DNA of 64,000 nucleotides from Flavobacterium cheongpyeongense. GTDB lineage: Bacteria > Bacteroidota > Bacteroidia > Flavobacteriales > Flavobacteriaceae. Shown here piece by piece: positions 7,914-16,365 of this stretch. The number at the start of each line of letters is the position of its first letter. Position 1 is the stretch's first letter. Under the pieces are notes generated by a model. The model searched no databases. It was not told the DNA's origin and saw only the letters and a list, made by a program, of their open reading frames with translations. The DNA is taken from contig NZ_QJHK01000001.1 of assembly GCF_003202435.1 (NCBI RefSeq), positions 248,001-312,000 on the forward strand, in the 5' to 3' direction. A program made the translations under genes and the position numbers.

Positions 7914-8231
7914 TTAATTTTCAATATAAATCCATGCTGTTATTCCGGATTTCAGTGTTATCTGAACTCTTTTATAGGCATTGGATTCAAATTGGTCCGC
8001 TTTGACCAGATCTGAGCTGGAAATACTATAAACGATACCATCAATTGCATCCGATGGATTTTCGCTGGGAGCAGCGACAAAATAGTCTTCAATTCCAAAT
8101 TCTTCTTCTATTTGCAGGTCTTTTAGTTTATAGCCTGTCAATTGGTCTGGTGTTCCGGTTAACAGTTTATTAAAAACCTGCATCTGAATTTCTTTTGACT
8201 GTAATGTTCCGTAAGAAAATATCTGTTCCAT
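7914..8231 (-). CDS. Gamma-glutamylcyclotransferase-like (AIG2) protein
   Basis: The 105-residue protein has the GGCT/AIG2 fold signature: a phosphate-binding FSYGTLQS loop at residues 5-12 and the proposed catalytic glutamate in ADQFESNAYKR (about residues 77-87). Family members cyclise gamma-glutamyl amino acids or amines to 5-oxoproline; the substrate is unknown here. It lies between trpB and trpA in the same direction, an insertion unrelated to tryptophan synthesis. There are 128 bases to trpA and 148 bases (filled by a repeat element) from trpB. Confidence 0.8.
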   Translation of the reverse strand: MEQIFSYGTLQSKEIQMQVFNKLLTGTPDQLTGYKLKDLQIEEEFGIEDYFVAAPSENPSDAIDGIVYSISSSDLVKADQFESNAYKRVQITLKSGITAWIYIEN

Positions 8232-8379: not shown

Positions 8380-9561
8380 TTACAATTTAAAATAATCTAT
8401 GTAATTATCTAAATCTTTATCGCCACGCCCCGAAAGGCTGATTACCACAATATCTGTTGGTTTGAATTGTTTCTGGTCGAGAACAGCAAAGGCGTGAGCA
8501 CTTTCAATTGCCGGAATAATTCCTTCTAATTTCGTAAGTTGCAAGCCTGCATTCATAGCATCGTCATCGGTCACTGAGAAGAATTCGCCACGTCCTGATT
8601 GTGCCAAATGTGCGTGCATAGGGCCAACTCCGGGATAATCAAGACCTGCAGAAATCGAATATGGTTCTGTAATTTGACCGTCAGGAGTTTGCATTAAAAG
8701 GGTTTTACATCCGTGAATAACGCCTACTTTTCCCAGTTTGCTTGTCGCAGCACTATGACCGCTGTCAACACCTTTTCCGGCTGCTTCGACTGCGATAATT
8801 CCCACTTCAGGCTCGTGTAAAAAGTGATAATAGGTTCCGGCAGCATTACTTCCACCACCAATACAAGCGACTACGTAATCCGGGTTTTCGCGGCCTTCTT
8901 TTTCTTTTAGCTGCCATTTGATTTCTTCTGAAATAATGCTCTGAAAACGGGTTACCATGTCCGGATACGGATGAGGTCCAATTGCAGAACCAATGATATA
9001 ATGAGTATCAACCGGATTATTGATCCAGTCTCTAATGGCTTCGTTTGTAGCATCTTTTAAGGTTCTTGAACCAGAAAGTGCCGGACGAACTTCGGCACCC
9101 AGCATTTTCATTCGTGCTACGTTTGGTGCCTGACGTGCAATGTCGATTTCGCCCATGTACACGATGCATTCCATTCCCATTAGAGCACAAACTGTCGCTG
9201 TTGCAACTCCGTGCTGACCGGCACCGGTTTCGGCAATAATTCGTTTTTTGCCCAAACGTCTGGCAACTAATATTTGACCAATAGTGTTGTTCACTTTATG
9301 GGCTCCGGTATGGTTTAGGTCCTCTCTTTTCAGATAAACTTTGGTATTGTATTTTTCAGATAAGCGTTTGGCAAAATAAAGCGGACTAGGGCGGCCAACG
9401 TAATCTTTGAGCAATTGGTCAAACTCTGCTTTAAAATCAGGTTCAGCTGTAATTTTTAAATAATTCTGGCGTAATTCTTCGACATTTGGATAGAGCATTT
9501 CCGGAATATAAGCGCCTCCAAATTCTCCATAATATCCTTTTTCGTCTACGTTAAAATTCAT
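8380..9561 (-). CDS. trpB: Tryptophan synthase beta chain
   Basis: This PLP enzyme condenses indole with L-serine to give tryptophan. Its 393 residues are the normal length for a TrpB1-type subunit. The Schiff-base lysine is Lys89 in NHTGAHKVNNTIGQ; the PLP phosphate loop GGGSNAAG and the ETGAGQHGVATA segment are present. It starts 12 bases after the trpF stop. It pairs with TrpA, whose gene is displaced downstream by a non-trp gene. Confidence 0.98.
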   Translation of the reverse strand: MNFNVDEKGYYGEFGGAYIPEMLYPNVEELRQNYLKITAEPDFKAEFDQLLKDYVGRPSPLYFAKRLSEKYNTKVYLKREDLNHTGAHKVNNTIGQILVARRLGKKRIIAETGAGQHGVATATVCALMGMECIVYMGEIDIARQAPNVARMKMLGAEVRPALSGSRTLKDATNEAIRDWINNPVDTHYIIGSAIGPHPYPDMVTRFQSIISEEIKWQLKEKEGRENPDYVVACIGGGSNAAGTYYHFLHEPEVGIIAVEAAGKGVDSGHSAATSKLGKVGVIHGCKTLLMQTPDGQITEPYSISAGLDYPGVGPMHAHLAQSGRGEFFSVTDDDAMNAGLQLTKLEGIIPAIESAHAFAVLDQKQFKPTDIVVISLSGRGDKDLDNYIDYFKL

Positions 9562-12206: not shown

Positions 12207-12614
12207 TTAATGTTCATTTCCCTGATAAATCCACATTGGTTCTGTTTTCCCTGCACGTTCGAATCCGTTTTTTTTGTAAAAATCAACTGCTCTTCCATCA
12301 GCAGTTAACATCTGCATATGGAAGTGTTTGTATTTCTCCTGCATTTTATCCATAATCAATTTCCCGATCCCTTTTCCCTGATATTCAGGAAGTACTAATA
12401 AATGCGGATAATAAACGGTTAAATACCCGTCTGAAATTGCATTTCCTAATCCCACTAATTTCTTTCCCTCCCAGGCCGTTACTAAAGTTTCAGAATTCAG
12501 AAGTCCGTTATACAACTCATTTGGTTTATTAGCAGAACTCCATTTATTAGCTTTATACAATACTAAAATATCTTCAATATTGATTTCTTTAGTTTCTAAA
12601 ATTGTTATTTGCAT
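12207..12614 (-). CDS. GNAT-family N-acetyltransferase inside the trp operon
   Basis: This 135-residue protein is a single GNAT domain. The acetyl-CoA binding motif A is VLPEYQGKGIGKLIMDKM (about residues 75-92), followed by DGRAVDFYKKNGFERAG, the common motif B. The substrate is unknown. It lies between trpG and trpD with spacers of 142 and 77 bases, so it is probably carried on the trp transcript without acting in the pathway. The long 5' spacer has its own inverted repeats (12622-12738). Confidence 0.88.
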   Translation of the reverse strand: MQITILETKEINIEDILVLYKANKWSSANKPNELYNGLLNSETLVTAWEGKKLVGLGNAISDGYLTVYYPHLLVLPEYQGKGIGKLIMDKMQEKYKHFHMQMLTADGRAVDFYKKNGFERAGKTEPMWIYQGNEH

Positions 12615-13391: not shown

Positions 13392-14792
13392 TTATATTTT
13401 CTCAGCCATTTCTAAAGCCGTATTCAATGCTCTTAACTTATTATAAACTTCCTGCATTTCGCTTTCTTCGTCAGAGCTTGCAACGATTCCTGCTCCGGCC
13501 TGACAATGTAATTGATGGTTTTTTGAAAGGAAAGTCCGAATCATAATCGCATGATTGAAATTCCCATCAAAATCCATAAAGCCAATGGCACCTCCGTAGA
13601 AATTACGGTTTGTTTTTTCATAATCTTCAATCAATTGCATCGCTCTGTGTTTTGGTGCACCGCTTAAAGTTCCTGCCGGAAAAGTATCGGCAACCACCTG
13701 CATCGTTGTCGCTTTATCGTGTAAATGTCCTGTAACTTTTGAAACCAGGTGAATAACATGTGAGAAAAACTGAACTTCTCTGTATCTTTCTACATTTACT
13801 TCATGCCCATTTCGGCTTAAATCGTTTCTTGCCAAATCTACCAGCATTACGTGTTCGCTGTTTTCTTTTTTGTCTTCGGATAATTTTTTCGCTAATTCGG
13901 CATCTTTTTCATCATTCCCCGTTCTTCTGAAAGTTCCGGCAATTGGATGAATTTCTGCTTTTCTGTTTTTTACAATAATCTGGGCTTCAGGTGAAGAACC
14001 AAATATTTTAAAATCACCATAATCAAAAAAGAATAAGTACGGAGATGGATTAATGCTTCGTAAAGCACGATACACATTGAATTCATCACCTTTGAAACCT
14101 TGTGTAAAGCGACGTGATAAAACCAATTGGAAAACGTCTCCACGAAAACAGTGTTTTTTGGCTAAAGCCACATTGTGTTTAAATTCATCATCGGTCAGGT
14201 TAGAGAAACCTTCGCCTTCTTTTGAGAATTTATAAGACGCTATATTTCTGGATTGTAATAATTGTTCAATTTCTGAGATATTATTTTTTCCGTCCAGGCT
14301 GTGACAAAAAATATAGGCCTCGTTTTTAAAGTGATTGATGGCAATAATGTTTTGATACACCGCATAAAAAACATCCGGAATTAAAGTAGCGTTATCTTTT
14401 TTAGCAATTTCAACTTTTTCGAAATAACGGACAGCATCGTAAGAAATGTATCCAAACAAACCATTATTGATGAATTTAAAATCGTTTTTCTCCGATTTGA
14501 ACTGGCCTGAAAATTCCTGAATTACCTGTGGGATATTTGTTGCTGCATCAATGTTGATTTGCTGCGATGTTCCGTCAGGGAAATTTTTCGTAATAACTTC
14601 GTTTTCGATTTTAATCGTTGCAATCGGATTACAGCAGATGTAAGAGAAGCTATTGTCATTTCCGTGATAATCACTACTTTCCAGTAATAAGCTATTAGGG
14701 AATTTATCTCTTATTTTAAAATAAACACTAACCGGCGTAATCGTGTCTGCCAGAATTTGTTTGTAGTGCGTGTTGAGTATAAAAGGTTTCAA
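13392..14792 (-). CDS. trpE: Anthranilate synthase component I
   Basis: This enzyme converts chorismate and ammonia (from TrpG) to anthranilate. The 466-residue protein shows the C-terminal chorismate-binding core: IAGTFRRTGNDEKDAELA, TFPAGTLSGAPKHRAM and HCQAGAGIVASS. The N-terminal LLESS motif at residues 36-40 is the tryptophan feedback-inhibition site of this family, so enzyme activity is probably controlled by tryptophan as well as transcription. It is the first structural gene of the operon, about 50 bases after the attenuator hairpin. Confidence 0.97.
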   Translation of the reverse strand: MKPFILNTHYKQILADTITPVSVYFKIRDKFPNSLLLESSDYHGNDNSFSYICCNPIATIKIENEVITKNFPDGTSQQINIDAATNIPQVIQEFSGQFKSEKNDFKFINNGLFGYISYDAVRYFEKVEIAKKDNATLIPDVFYAVYQNIIAINHFKNEAYIFCHSLDGKNNISEIEQLLQSRNIASYKFSKEGEGFSNLTDDEFKHNVALAKKHCFRGDVFQLVLSRRFTQGFKGDEFNVYRALRSINPSPYLFFFDYGDFKIFGSSPEAQIIVKNRKAEIHPIAGTFRRTGNDEKDAELAKKLSEDKKENSEHVMLVDLARNDLSRNGHEVNVERYREVQFFSHVIHLVSKVTGHLHDKATTMQVVADTFPAGTLSGAPKHRAMQLIEDYEKTNRNFYGGAIGFMDFDGNFNHAIMIRTFLSKNHQLHCQAGAGIVASSDEESEMQEVYNKLRALNTALEMAEKI

Positions 14793-14842
14793 TGTATGTT
14801 GTTTTTTAGTTTTTAATTATTTGCTAAAGTTCTGGACAAAAA

Positions 14843-14871
14843 AAAAGGCCTGTCGTGATGACAAGCCTTTT
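14843..14871 (-). terminator. trp attenuator: intrinsic terminator hairpin
   Basis: On the minus strand AAAAGGCTTGTC pairs with GACAGGCCTTTT (12 pairs, one G-U) around ATCAC and is followed by a run of Ts. It lies between the leader peptide and trpE, the position of a classical attenuator. It is mutually exclusive with the antiterminator pairing of 14852-14866 with 14900-14913. Confidence 0.9.
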
Positions 14872-14913
14872 ATATTTATAGTTTACAATACCATAGGAAG
14901 CTTTGTTCACGAC
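14852..14913 (-). promoter_or_regulatory. trp antiterminator pairing
   Basis: On the minus strand GTCGTGAACAAAGC (14900-14913, covering the leader stop codon) can pair with GCTTGTCATCACGAC (14852-14866). This gives 7 contiguous pairs, then 6 more after a small bulge. It uses the loop and inner arms of the terminator hairpin. A ribosome stalled on the Trp codons would leave the first strand free to form this antiterminator; a ribosome at the stop codon would cover it. Confidence 0.82.
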
Positions 14914-14963
14914 GTTTGACGTAAATTCTTCCACCACCAAGTATTGTTCATTGTAATTTTCAT
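14907..14963 (-). CDS. trpL: trp operon leader peptide
   Basis: An 18-codon ORF encodes MKITMNNTWWWKNLRQTS, with three consecutive tryptophan codons at residues 9-11. It is too short for ordinary gene calling. It begins about 12-14 bases after the predicted start of transcription and ends just before the antiterminator/terminator region of trpE. Ribosome stalling at the TGG codons under tryptophan starvation is the known mechanism for such peptides. Here it is inferred from codon content, position and the two alternative RNA structures. Confidence 0.9.
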   Translation of the reverse strand: MKITMNNTWWWKNLRQTS

Positions 14964-14981
14964 AAAATTATTTTGATACTG

Positions 14982-14989
14982 CAAATATA
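14982..14989 (-). promoter_or_regulatory. -7 promoter box of the trp operon
   Basis: TATATTTG on the minus strand matches the TAnnTTTG consensus. It lies 18 bases before the leader-peptide ATG, so the leader mRNA would be short and the attenuated RNA about 130 bases. A clear -33 TTG at the usual spacing is not seen. Confidence 0.65.
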
Positions 14990-15087
14990 TAAATGTAATT
15001 TGAATTAAAATGGGTCAAAAGCAAAAAAAAACTTTCCTTAATTTATAAATTTGTTAAATATGTAAAAGGGCAGGTTGTTTTAGCTGC

Positions 15088-16365
15088 TTATTTGCCACTT
15101 GCAACTGTATTGTTGAGTTTTATTCTAAAGTCTGGATTTCCTTTAATATTAGGGGTCAGGAACAGTTCGCTGCTTTTTATTTTTGTGGTTTCTATTGCAA
15201 ATTCAGGATTGCTGTACCAATTTTTAATTGCAGTATTATTGCTTGAAGATTCGCTCATAATTTCCCCGTTACAATTGTTAACTATCACGTTTTTTACTGT
15301 AACTTTTGATAAATTTTCGTTATCAGTTCCAATATTTCCATTCAAAAGGATGAAAGGTGTGAACCCGGAAACAACGCTATTGGTTAAATTGAAAAAAGTA
15401 TTTTCTCCAATGTGAGCAGATTCACGAACCAGTCCCTGATTATTTTCTTCCAGATTTACCAGTGTGATATTACTGGCATTTATTTTGGTCATTTTTTTAG
15501 TCATGTCCGTATTTTCAATTTTGTCGTATGAATCTACTTCGAAACATCTGGATCCTGAAATGTCTGATGAAAAAGGATGGCGGATAGCAATACTGTTAAT
15601 GATATTGATTTGAGCTCCCTGAGTAAAATCAAAGTCATCGTCTGTAGTTCGGTATGAAATTAAGTTATTCAGATTCAGATCGCCTCCATAACATTCAAAA
15701 GAATCATCATTAGAATAACTAATTTGGATGTTGTTTAAAACTGTTTTTCTCCCGACACCAGCCAGTGAAAGTCCGTTAAGTTCTTTTAAAGCGCTTAATT
15801 TTCTGCCTGAAAATTCAATGCGTACATATTTCAGGATTCCTGAATTATCTTCTGCATCCTGACCTCCGTAATGATTCACCATTTCGTCGAGGTTAAATGG
15901 TAAAGTAGCTATACCGCCTAGTTTACTGATAGGAGCTTTTCCCATGATTATAATTCCGCCCCAGTCACCTGGTCTTCTTTCAGTAGTTTCTTTATTTGAA
16001 GTAAAAATTATGGGGTCTGTTTCTAGGCCTTCAGCTATAATTTTTGCACCATTTGTAATTACTAATGTTCCGCAGGTTTTGTCATCGCCCCTGATAACAG
16101 TTCCGGGCTCGATTGTAAGCACAGCATTATTGGTCACGTAAACAACACCAACTAACTGATAAGTATTCCGTTTGGTAAGTTTTGTGTCTTTATCGATCGT
16201 TCCGGCAATGATATTTGTAGCTTCGTTGTATTCAACTGCAGCTGGCTTAAAATTAGTCCAGTTATTCATCCAGTTTGATGCTCCGATGATTCCTTTTTGT
16301 TGTTGTGCCTGAAGAAAGAAAGTGCTGAATAATGTTATAATGATAATGTGAATTTTAGTTTTCAT
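15088..16365 (-). CDS. Secreted right-handed beta-helix protein
   Basis: The 425-residue protein has a signal peptide (MKTKIHIIIITLFSTFFLQA). Its body is parallel beta-helix-like, with recurring short strands such as VVYVTNNAVLTIEPGTVIRG, LVITNGAKIIAEG and ISYSNDDSFECYGG. Bacteroidota have many such surface or periplasmic proteins, often annotated only as hypothetical. No T9SS C-terminal sorting domain, lipobox or catalytic triad is evident, so a pectate-lyase-like activity cannot be claimed. It stands alone upstream of the trp leader on the same strand, with 103 bases from its stop to the predicted trp -7 box. Confidence 0.7.
   Translation of the reverse strand: MKTKIHIIIITLFSTFFLQAQQQKGIIGASNWMNNWTNFKPAAVEYNEATNIIAGTIDKDTKLTKRNTYQLVGVVYVTNNAVLTIEPGTVIRGDDKTCGTLVITNGAKIIAEGLETDPIIFTSNKETTERRPGDWGGIIIMGKAPISKLGGIATLPFNLDEMVNHYGGQDAEDNSGILKYVRIEFSGRKLSALKELNGLSLAGVGRKTVLNNIQISYSNDDSFECYGGDLNLNNLISYRTTDDDFDFTQGAQINIINSIAIRHPFSSDISGSRCFEVDSYDKIENTDMTKKMTKINASNITLVNLEENNQGLVRESAHIGENTFFNLTNSVVSGFTPFILLNGNIGTDNENLSKVTVKNVIVNNCNGEIMSESSSNNTAIKNWYSNPEFAIETTKIKSSELFLTPNIKGNPDFRIKLNNTVASGK

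Follow-up and report, generated by a model that had tools for sequence, protein, structure and literature searches.

The trp attenuator of enterobacteria (Rfam family Trp_leader) combines a leader peptide rich in Trp codons, 1:2, 2:3 and 3:4 hairpins and a terminator before trpE. For the Bacteroidetes, an RNA named Bacteroid-trp is given in Table 1 of Weinberg et al. 2010 as likely cis-regulatory and not as a riboswitch (PMC2864571), and a Flavobacterium psychrophilum study describes it as conserved ahead of the trp operon and notes its resemblance to the leader of E. coli (PMC6414381). A transcriptome map of the same species speaks of strong clues for leader-peptide attenuation before amino acid operons, which the passage concerned leaves unnamed (PMC9723704), and passages of two further papers treat leader peptides in Bacteroidetes in general terms (PMC4833913, PMC7366714). 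We analysed a stretch of 64,000 nucleotides from Flavobacterium cheongpyeongense, called the window below, which carries one such element:

14860 to 14983, minus strand: match to Rfam family RF01692 (Bacteroid-trp), 68.3 bits at a gathering score of 49, model positions 1-131 of 131

RF01692 is the sole Rfam family above cut-off in the window, and the whole assembly of this strain (5.2 Mb, 89 contigs) holds one match to it in total. The score, the site upstream of trp genes in a genome of the Bacteroidota and the ORF with Trp codons all agree with membership of the family. Given this match and the papers that name the element, the finding is real and without novelty: the element is well conserved and already known as a named family.

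The window and RF01692 are alike in sequence, protector hairpin, leader ORF and site before trp genes. The model ends at the 5' arm of the terminator (GGCUUGUC) and holds one hairpin only, its paired part being the 1:2 (protector) hairpin; it lacks the 3' arm of the terminator and the partner strand of the antiterminator, both of which the window has. With the enterobacterial attenuator the window shares the Trp leader peptide, the 1:2, 2:3 and 3:4 hairpins and the terminator before trpE; unlike the enteric design, its predicted antiterminator straddles the terminator, with 7 pairs to the loop and proximal 3' arm and 6 pairs to the 5' arm. Six Rfam matches had an E-value of at most 1 in positions 14600-15200; Trp_leader was not one of them, and Phe_leader (20.8 bits) and Thr_leader (19.4 bits) stayed far under their cut-offs of 55. 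No match to the Trp repressor (TrpR) family was found in 31 genomes, that of the window included, and in a control set of 14 genomes the family gave matches in E. coli and B. subtilis.

Architecture of the trp locus

The element stands at the head of a row of trp genes:

14792 down to 7024, minus strand: trp gene row trpE-trpG-GNAT-trpD-trpC-trpF-trpB-GGACT-trpA, from ORF coordinates and domains
13392 to 14792, minus strand: trpE, with a TTG start according to the ORF list; first structural gene of the row, the putative attenuator lying directly 5'

Domain search places Anth_synt_I_N and Chorismate_bind domains in the trpE product. Within the row, trpG and trpD are separated by a GNAT acetyltransferase gene (12207-12614), and trpB and trpA by a GGACT (AIG2-like) gene (7914-8231); in the trp operon of F. 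psychrophilum, as described in the study cited above, an elastinolytic protease gene is co-transcribed instead (PMC6414381). On the other side of the leader, a gene on the same strand (15088-16365) ends 125 nt ahead of the leader ATG. Between this gene and trpE the following features were recognised:

14982 to 14989, minus strand: TAnnTTTG (TATATTTG), presumed Bacteroidota-type -7 element, from the sequence and its recurrence in related leaders
14907 to 14963, minus strand: leader peptide ORF MKITMNNTWWWKNLRQTS, ATG at 14963-14961 and stop codon TGA at 14909-14907
14931 to 14939, minus strand: three tandem Trp codons, TGG TGG TGG, read from the sequence; presumed stall site
14898 to 14913, minus strand: strand 2, consisting of GUCGUGA (14913-14907, overlapping the stop codon) and AAGCUU (14903-14898), from duplex prediction
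14852 to 14868, minus strand: strand 3, consisting of AGGCUU (14868-14863, terminator 5' arm) and UCACGAC (14858-14852, terminator loop and start of the 3' arm), from duplex prediction and covariation
14843 to 14871, minus strand: intrinsic terminator hairpin (3:4) of 12 pairs with a loop of 5 and a U-run, with covariation among 141 leaders

These features bear out the first-pass annotation, which had described an 18-codon ORF with three consecutive TGG codons, a strong terminator hairpin with a T-run before trpE, a 13-pair antiterminator joining 14900-14913 to 14852-14866 and an overlap of the antiterminator strand with the leader stop codon. The ORF is present on the minus strand, the hairpin and T-run extend from 14871 to 14843, the stop codon lies within strand 2, and an antiterminator of 13 pairs is predicted over closely similar ranges, with 14913-14907 paired to 14858-14852 and 14903-14898 paired to 14868-14863 (-17.3 kcal/mol). 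The LLESS motif claimed for TrpE is likewise present near the N-terminus, where LLES aligns with LLES of the anthranilate synthase chain 7bvd; we take it to be the motif that binds feedback tryptophan, and a two-layered control of the trp genes, by attenuation and by feedback on TrpE, would be a reasonable reading.

The region 14836-14975 folds with a z-score of -4.0, a stability equalled in none of 200 shuffles, and the hairpin is the only terminator-like site in 14500-15300 (one found, against a mean of 0.6 in shuffles). Two copies of TGGTGGTGG occur in the window, against 0.11 expected from shuffles, of which one in 100 had two copies; the second copy (8852-8860, minus strand) lies within the trpB gene. 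Since a scan for sigma-70 promoters gave no sites (3.5 in shuffles), the TAnnTTTG element was taken instead, which fits the -7 promoter motif of the Bacteroidota.

Comparison of related leaders

Among 149 genomes from the taxonomic family of this strain, 109 had a match to RF01692 (95 over the cut-off) and 40 had none; across the phylum the count was 42 of 395 genomes (38 over the cut-off), a set that overlaps with the 149. A looser DNA pattern of Trp codons, GTGA and a terminator arm was matched in 115 of the 149 genomes, several of the matches being plainly chance sites. This pattern also gave leader-like matches in genomes with no Rfam match (for example G025, G050 and G138), and the Rfam search misses some leaders. 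Exact copies of the 44-nt core of the leader, with one ambiguous base, occur in 28 public stretches, of which 27 have Flavobacterium in the title and one has [Flexibacter].

For the comparison 143 loci were fetched, with one match at a contig end (G082:C26) left out, and the terminator finder placed a hairpin in 141; the two loci dropped (L083 and L093) both have TGGTGGTGG and a hairpin outside the limits of the finder. TrpE was matched in 141 of the 143 loci. The next gene is trpE in 137, trpB in four (L031, L036, L055 and L137) and trpD in two (L142 and L143); as it precedes trpB-first and trpD-first rows too, the leader has kept its place in front of trp operons whose gene order has changed. 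The gap between terminator and trpE is at most about 120 nt in 135 of the 137. In the other two (L029 and L078) the terminator is 262 and 397 nt away from trpE, and short ORF fragments in this interval resemble, in both loci, what is left of a similar gene.

A TGGTGG pair stands where it is expected in each of the 143 fetched relatives, a conservation which, like that of strand 2, is partly by construction, because the leaders were found through a model that contains both. Three of the 141 leaders have no in-frame ATG; among the other 138, to which the peptide counts refer, the Trp run is WWW in 133 and WW in five, and the residues outside the run are variable. TAnnTTTG occurs no more than 45 nt upstream in 133 of the 141 related leaders, against eight of 141 shuffled regions. 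A TTG upstream of it lies at a distance of 19-20 nt in 101 of these 133 and of 26 nt in the window; the -33 promoter box is thus off its usual spacing here, which counts against an attenuator as the best explanation of this locus.

The terminator is strongly supported by covariation. Across the 141 leaders 97.7% of the alignment cells are paired, falling to 23-64% when the partner is slid, and eight of the 12 pairs have changes on both sides; double-change cells number 45, against 4.5 in shuffled alignments, and none of 500 shuffles reached as many. These cells, and those of the antiterminator below, are not independent events, because the leader sequences are related. Since the Rfam model covers neither the 3' arm of the terminator nor its loop, the search did not select for pairing there. 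For the full alignment, RNAalifold returned the terminator alone (10 pairs), as expected where folds exclude each other. An intrinsic terminator conserved by covariation therefore stands ahead of the first structural gene, as in an attenuator.

The core of the antiterminator joins GUCGUGA to UCACGAC, and in the 141 leaders its cells are paired to 90.3%. Four pairs have double changes, a number reached by four of 500 shuffles, and there are 11 double-change cells against 1.8 in shuffles, with none of 500 as high; the outer pair is formed in only 70 of the 141 leaders, the inner six pairs are complete in 123, and sliding the partner by +3 gave an equal covariation score (0.083). When strand 2 was swapped between 43 terminator classes, the native combinations averaged -15.6 kcal/mol and the swapped ones -13.95, and the native one ranked top for just two of the 43 terminators; this plain swap is weak, since a strong strand 2 comes out ahead on every terminator. 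Once row and column effects had been removed by centring, the native combinations were better by 1.61 kcal/mol (permutation sd 0.32, none of 5000 permutations as low), and against shuffled strand-2 regions the native strand-2 duplex had a mean z of -2.5. Concerted changes are seen in two divergent leaders: in L131 GCCGU-AAGU pairs with ACUU-ACGGU, and in L138 UCAAAGUCUU pairs with AAGACUUUGA, which belongs to the 5' arm of the terminator and the edge of its loop. These comparisons point to a mutually exclusive antiterminator which covaries modestly, less than the terminator does, and co-evolves with its own terminator.

The protector hairpin and the position of the codons follow the same plan. 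When folded without a ribosome, all 141 leaders have half or more of strand 2 paired upstream, the mean share of its bases so paired being 0.81, against 0.43 with the upstream part shuffled. The first Trp codon lies 26 nt ahead of strand 2 in 103 and 25-27 nt ahead of it in 135 of the 141 leaders, a spacing at which a stalled ribosome would free strand 2. Relative to strand 2, the stop codon starts 4 nt inside it in 82 leaders, 9 nt inside it in 28 and 5 nt ahead of it in 14, and lies between -12 and +18 nt from the start of strand 2 in 140 of the 141. On the logic of established attenuation, which takes the footprint size of the ribosome as given, this is the placement that would be expected, since strand 2 has to be freed by a ribosome that stalls and covered by one that terminates. 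Taken by itself the single trp locus is an ordinary, well-conserved regulator annotated by Rfam; the comparison of 141 leaders adds support for the spacing, the stop placement and the covarying terminator and antiterminator.

Proposed mechanism and alternative explanations

A promoter-like element, the ORF with Trp-Trp-Trp, the predicted 1:2, 2:3 and 3:4 pairings and trpE can all be read from the DNA, and we hold with high confidence that the window carries the ribosome-mediated trp attenuator of the Bacteroidota (RF01692). The element would very probably let transcription through only when ribosomes stall for want of tryptophan. RNA polymerase would start near 14975. With plentiful tryptophan, the ribosome would reach the stop codon in strand 2 and cover this strand (or the 1:2 hairpin would re-form), so that the 3:4 terminator folds and the RNA ends after about 130-140 nt. 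With charged tRNA-Trp scarce, it would halt on the TGG codons and cover the 5' half of the protector hairpin; the freed strand 2 would then pair with the terminator, in its loop and in both of its arms, and the polymerase would proceed into the trp genes. The first-pass annotation had already read the locus as attenuation by ribosome stalling, and named a lack of conservation of the short ORF or of covariation in relatives as evidence to the contrary. Its reading has gained from the relatives, in which the ORF and the spacing are conserved and covariation is strong in the terminator and modest in the antiterminator. With three RNA states, a near-fixed ribosome spacing and the stop placement, these leaders form a clean natural alignment and a good test bed for the coupling of transcription and translation in Bacteroidota.

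Terminated leaders are released as short RNAs, and the window has a weak match to an sRNA family at 14831-14905 (RF00519 suhB, 23.9 bits at a cut-off of 41), as might be seen if the leader acted mainly as a stable sRNA or through a trans-acting peptide. A role of this kind has been reported for peTrpL in Sinorhizobium (PMC7298713). The residues beyond the Trp run differ between the relatives of our leader, and we consider such a main role very unlikely here.

Slightly less likely still is that tryptophan is sensed without a stalled ribosome, by a T-box, a TRAP-like protein or direct binding of tryptophan to the RNA. Switches of these kinds between terminator and antiterminator exist for trp genes elsewhere, but in the window no Rfam family apart from RF01692, the T-box included, scores above its cut-off, and the fixed distance between Trp codons and strand 2, together with the placing of the stop codon at that strand, is best accounted for by a ribosome that translates the leader. 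Equally improbable, and rejected, is a constitutive terminator that merely ends the co-directional upstream gene (15088-16365) next to a chance Trp-rich ORF: this gene does end close to the leader ATG, but the promoter-like element sits between the two, and the peptide, the spacing and both structures recur in 141 leaders before trpE, trpB or trpD.

Candidate leaders ahead of other amino acid genes

Beyond the trp leader, the same genome has further candidate leaders outside the window, which we regard as a more useful lead than the trp locus. A run of His codons followed by a terminator is found upstream of hisG (L144, G000:C11; MFTNQLHHHHFHNCSQAMC), a Phe/Tyr-rich leader with a terminator upstream of the prephenate dehydratase (PDT) gene (L148, G000:C3; MATNRFYFSNNFYFFFSRS) and an Ile/Val-rich leader with a terminator upstream of ilvD (L147, G000:C25; MQISINITSVIVVNVYNTFASGMV). 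Upstream of an aspartokinase-homoserine dehydrogenase gene (L236, G000:C24) there is a Thr-rich short ORF resembling a thr leader (MKRNSYKYQSSETTQTRVAIAVTTISTTTTTTP); the second such gene (L237) has no such leader upstream. No Rfam leader family attains its cut-off at the His, Phe or Ilv locus here: His_leader scored 34.7 bits at the his locus (cut-off 49), and the Rfam scan of L145-L148 listed no amino acid leader family.

We sampled 30 of 49 hisG matches and 30 of 51 PDT matches, the locus of this genome included in each. A His-rich leader with a terminator was found in 29 of the 30 hisG loci and a Phe/Tyr-rich one in 25 of the 30 PDT loci, by thresholds (3 of 8 residues for His, 5 of 8 for Phe/Tyr) that were chosen after seeing the peptides and are without a random control. 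Four of the five misses in the PDT set start less than 700 nt from a contig end, where extraction at a fixed offset fails; the fifth is L190. At ilvD, a short ORF with at least seven I/L/V in 10 residues within 500 nt was found in 13 of 30 loci, a soft and uncontrolled criterion which the leader of our own genome failed and by which one candidate (L219) is doubtful. Pairing between strand 2 and terminator exceeded that of shuffles on average (mean z -1.7 for His and -1.9 for Phe/Tyr), with z below -2 in only 11 of 29 His and 11 of 25 Phe/Tyr leaders; we take this predicted pairing as a lead and no proof.

On balance we favour the view that Flavobacteriaceae may possess a set of attenuators of the ribosome-mediated type, for Trp, His, Phe/Tyr, Ile/Val and Thr, that share a common design in which strand 2 coincides with the leader stop codon or lies close to it, and that in the trp leader the core of the antiterminator takes hold of the loop and the proximal part of the terminator 3' arm. 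Members of the phylum are not known to depend on Shine-Dalgarno sequences for the initiation of translation. If the set is real, attenuation, and hence coupling of transcription and translation without Shine-Dalgarno initiation, would be a main route of amino acid control there. Near the prephenate dehydratase locus we also observed a Flavo-1 RNA (RF01705, 80.2 bits, L148 positions 2791-2868).
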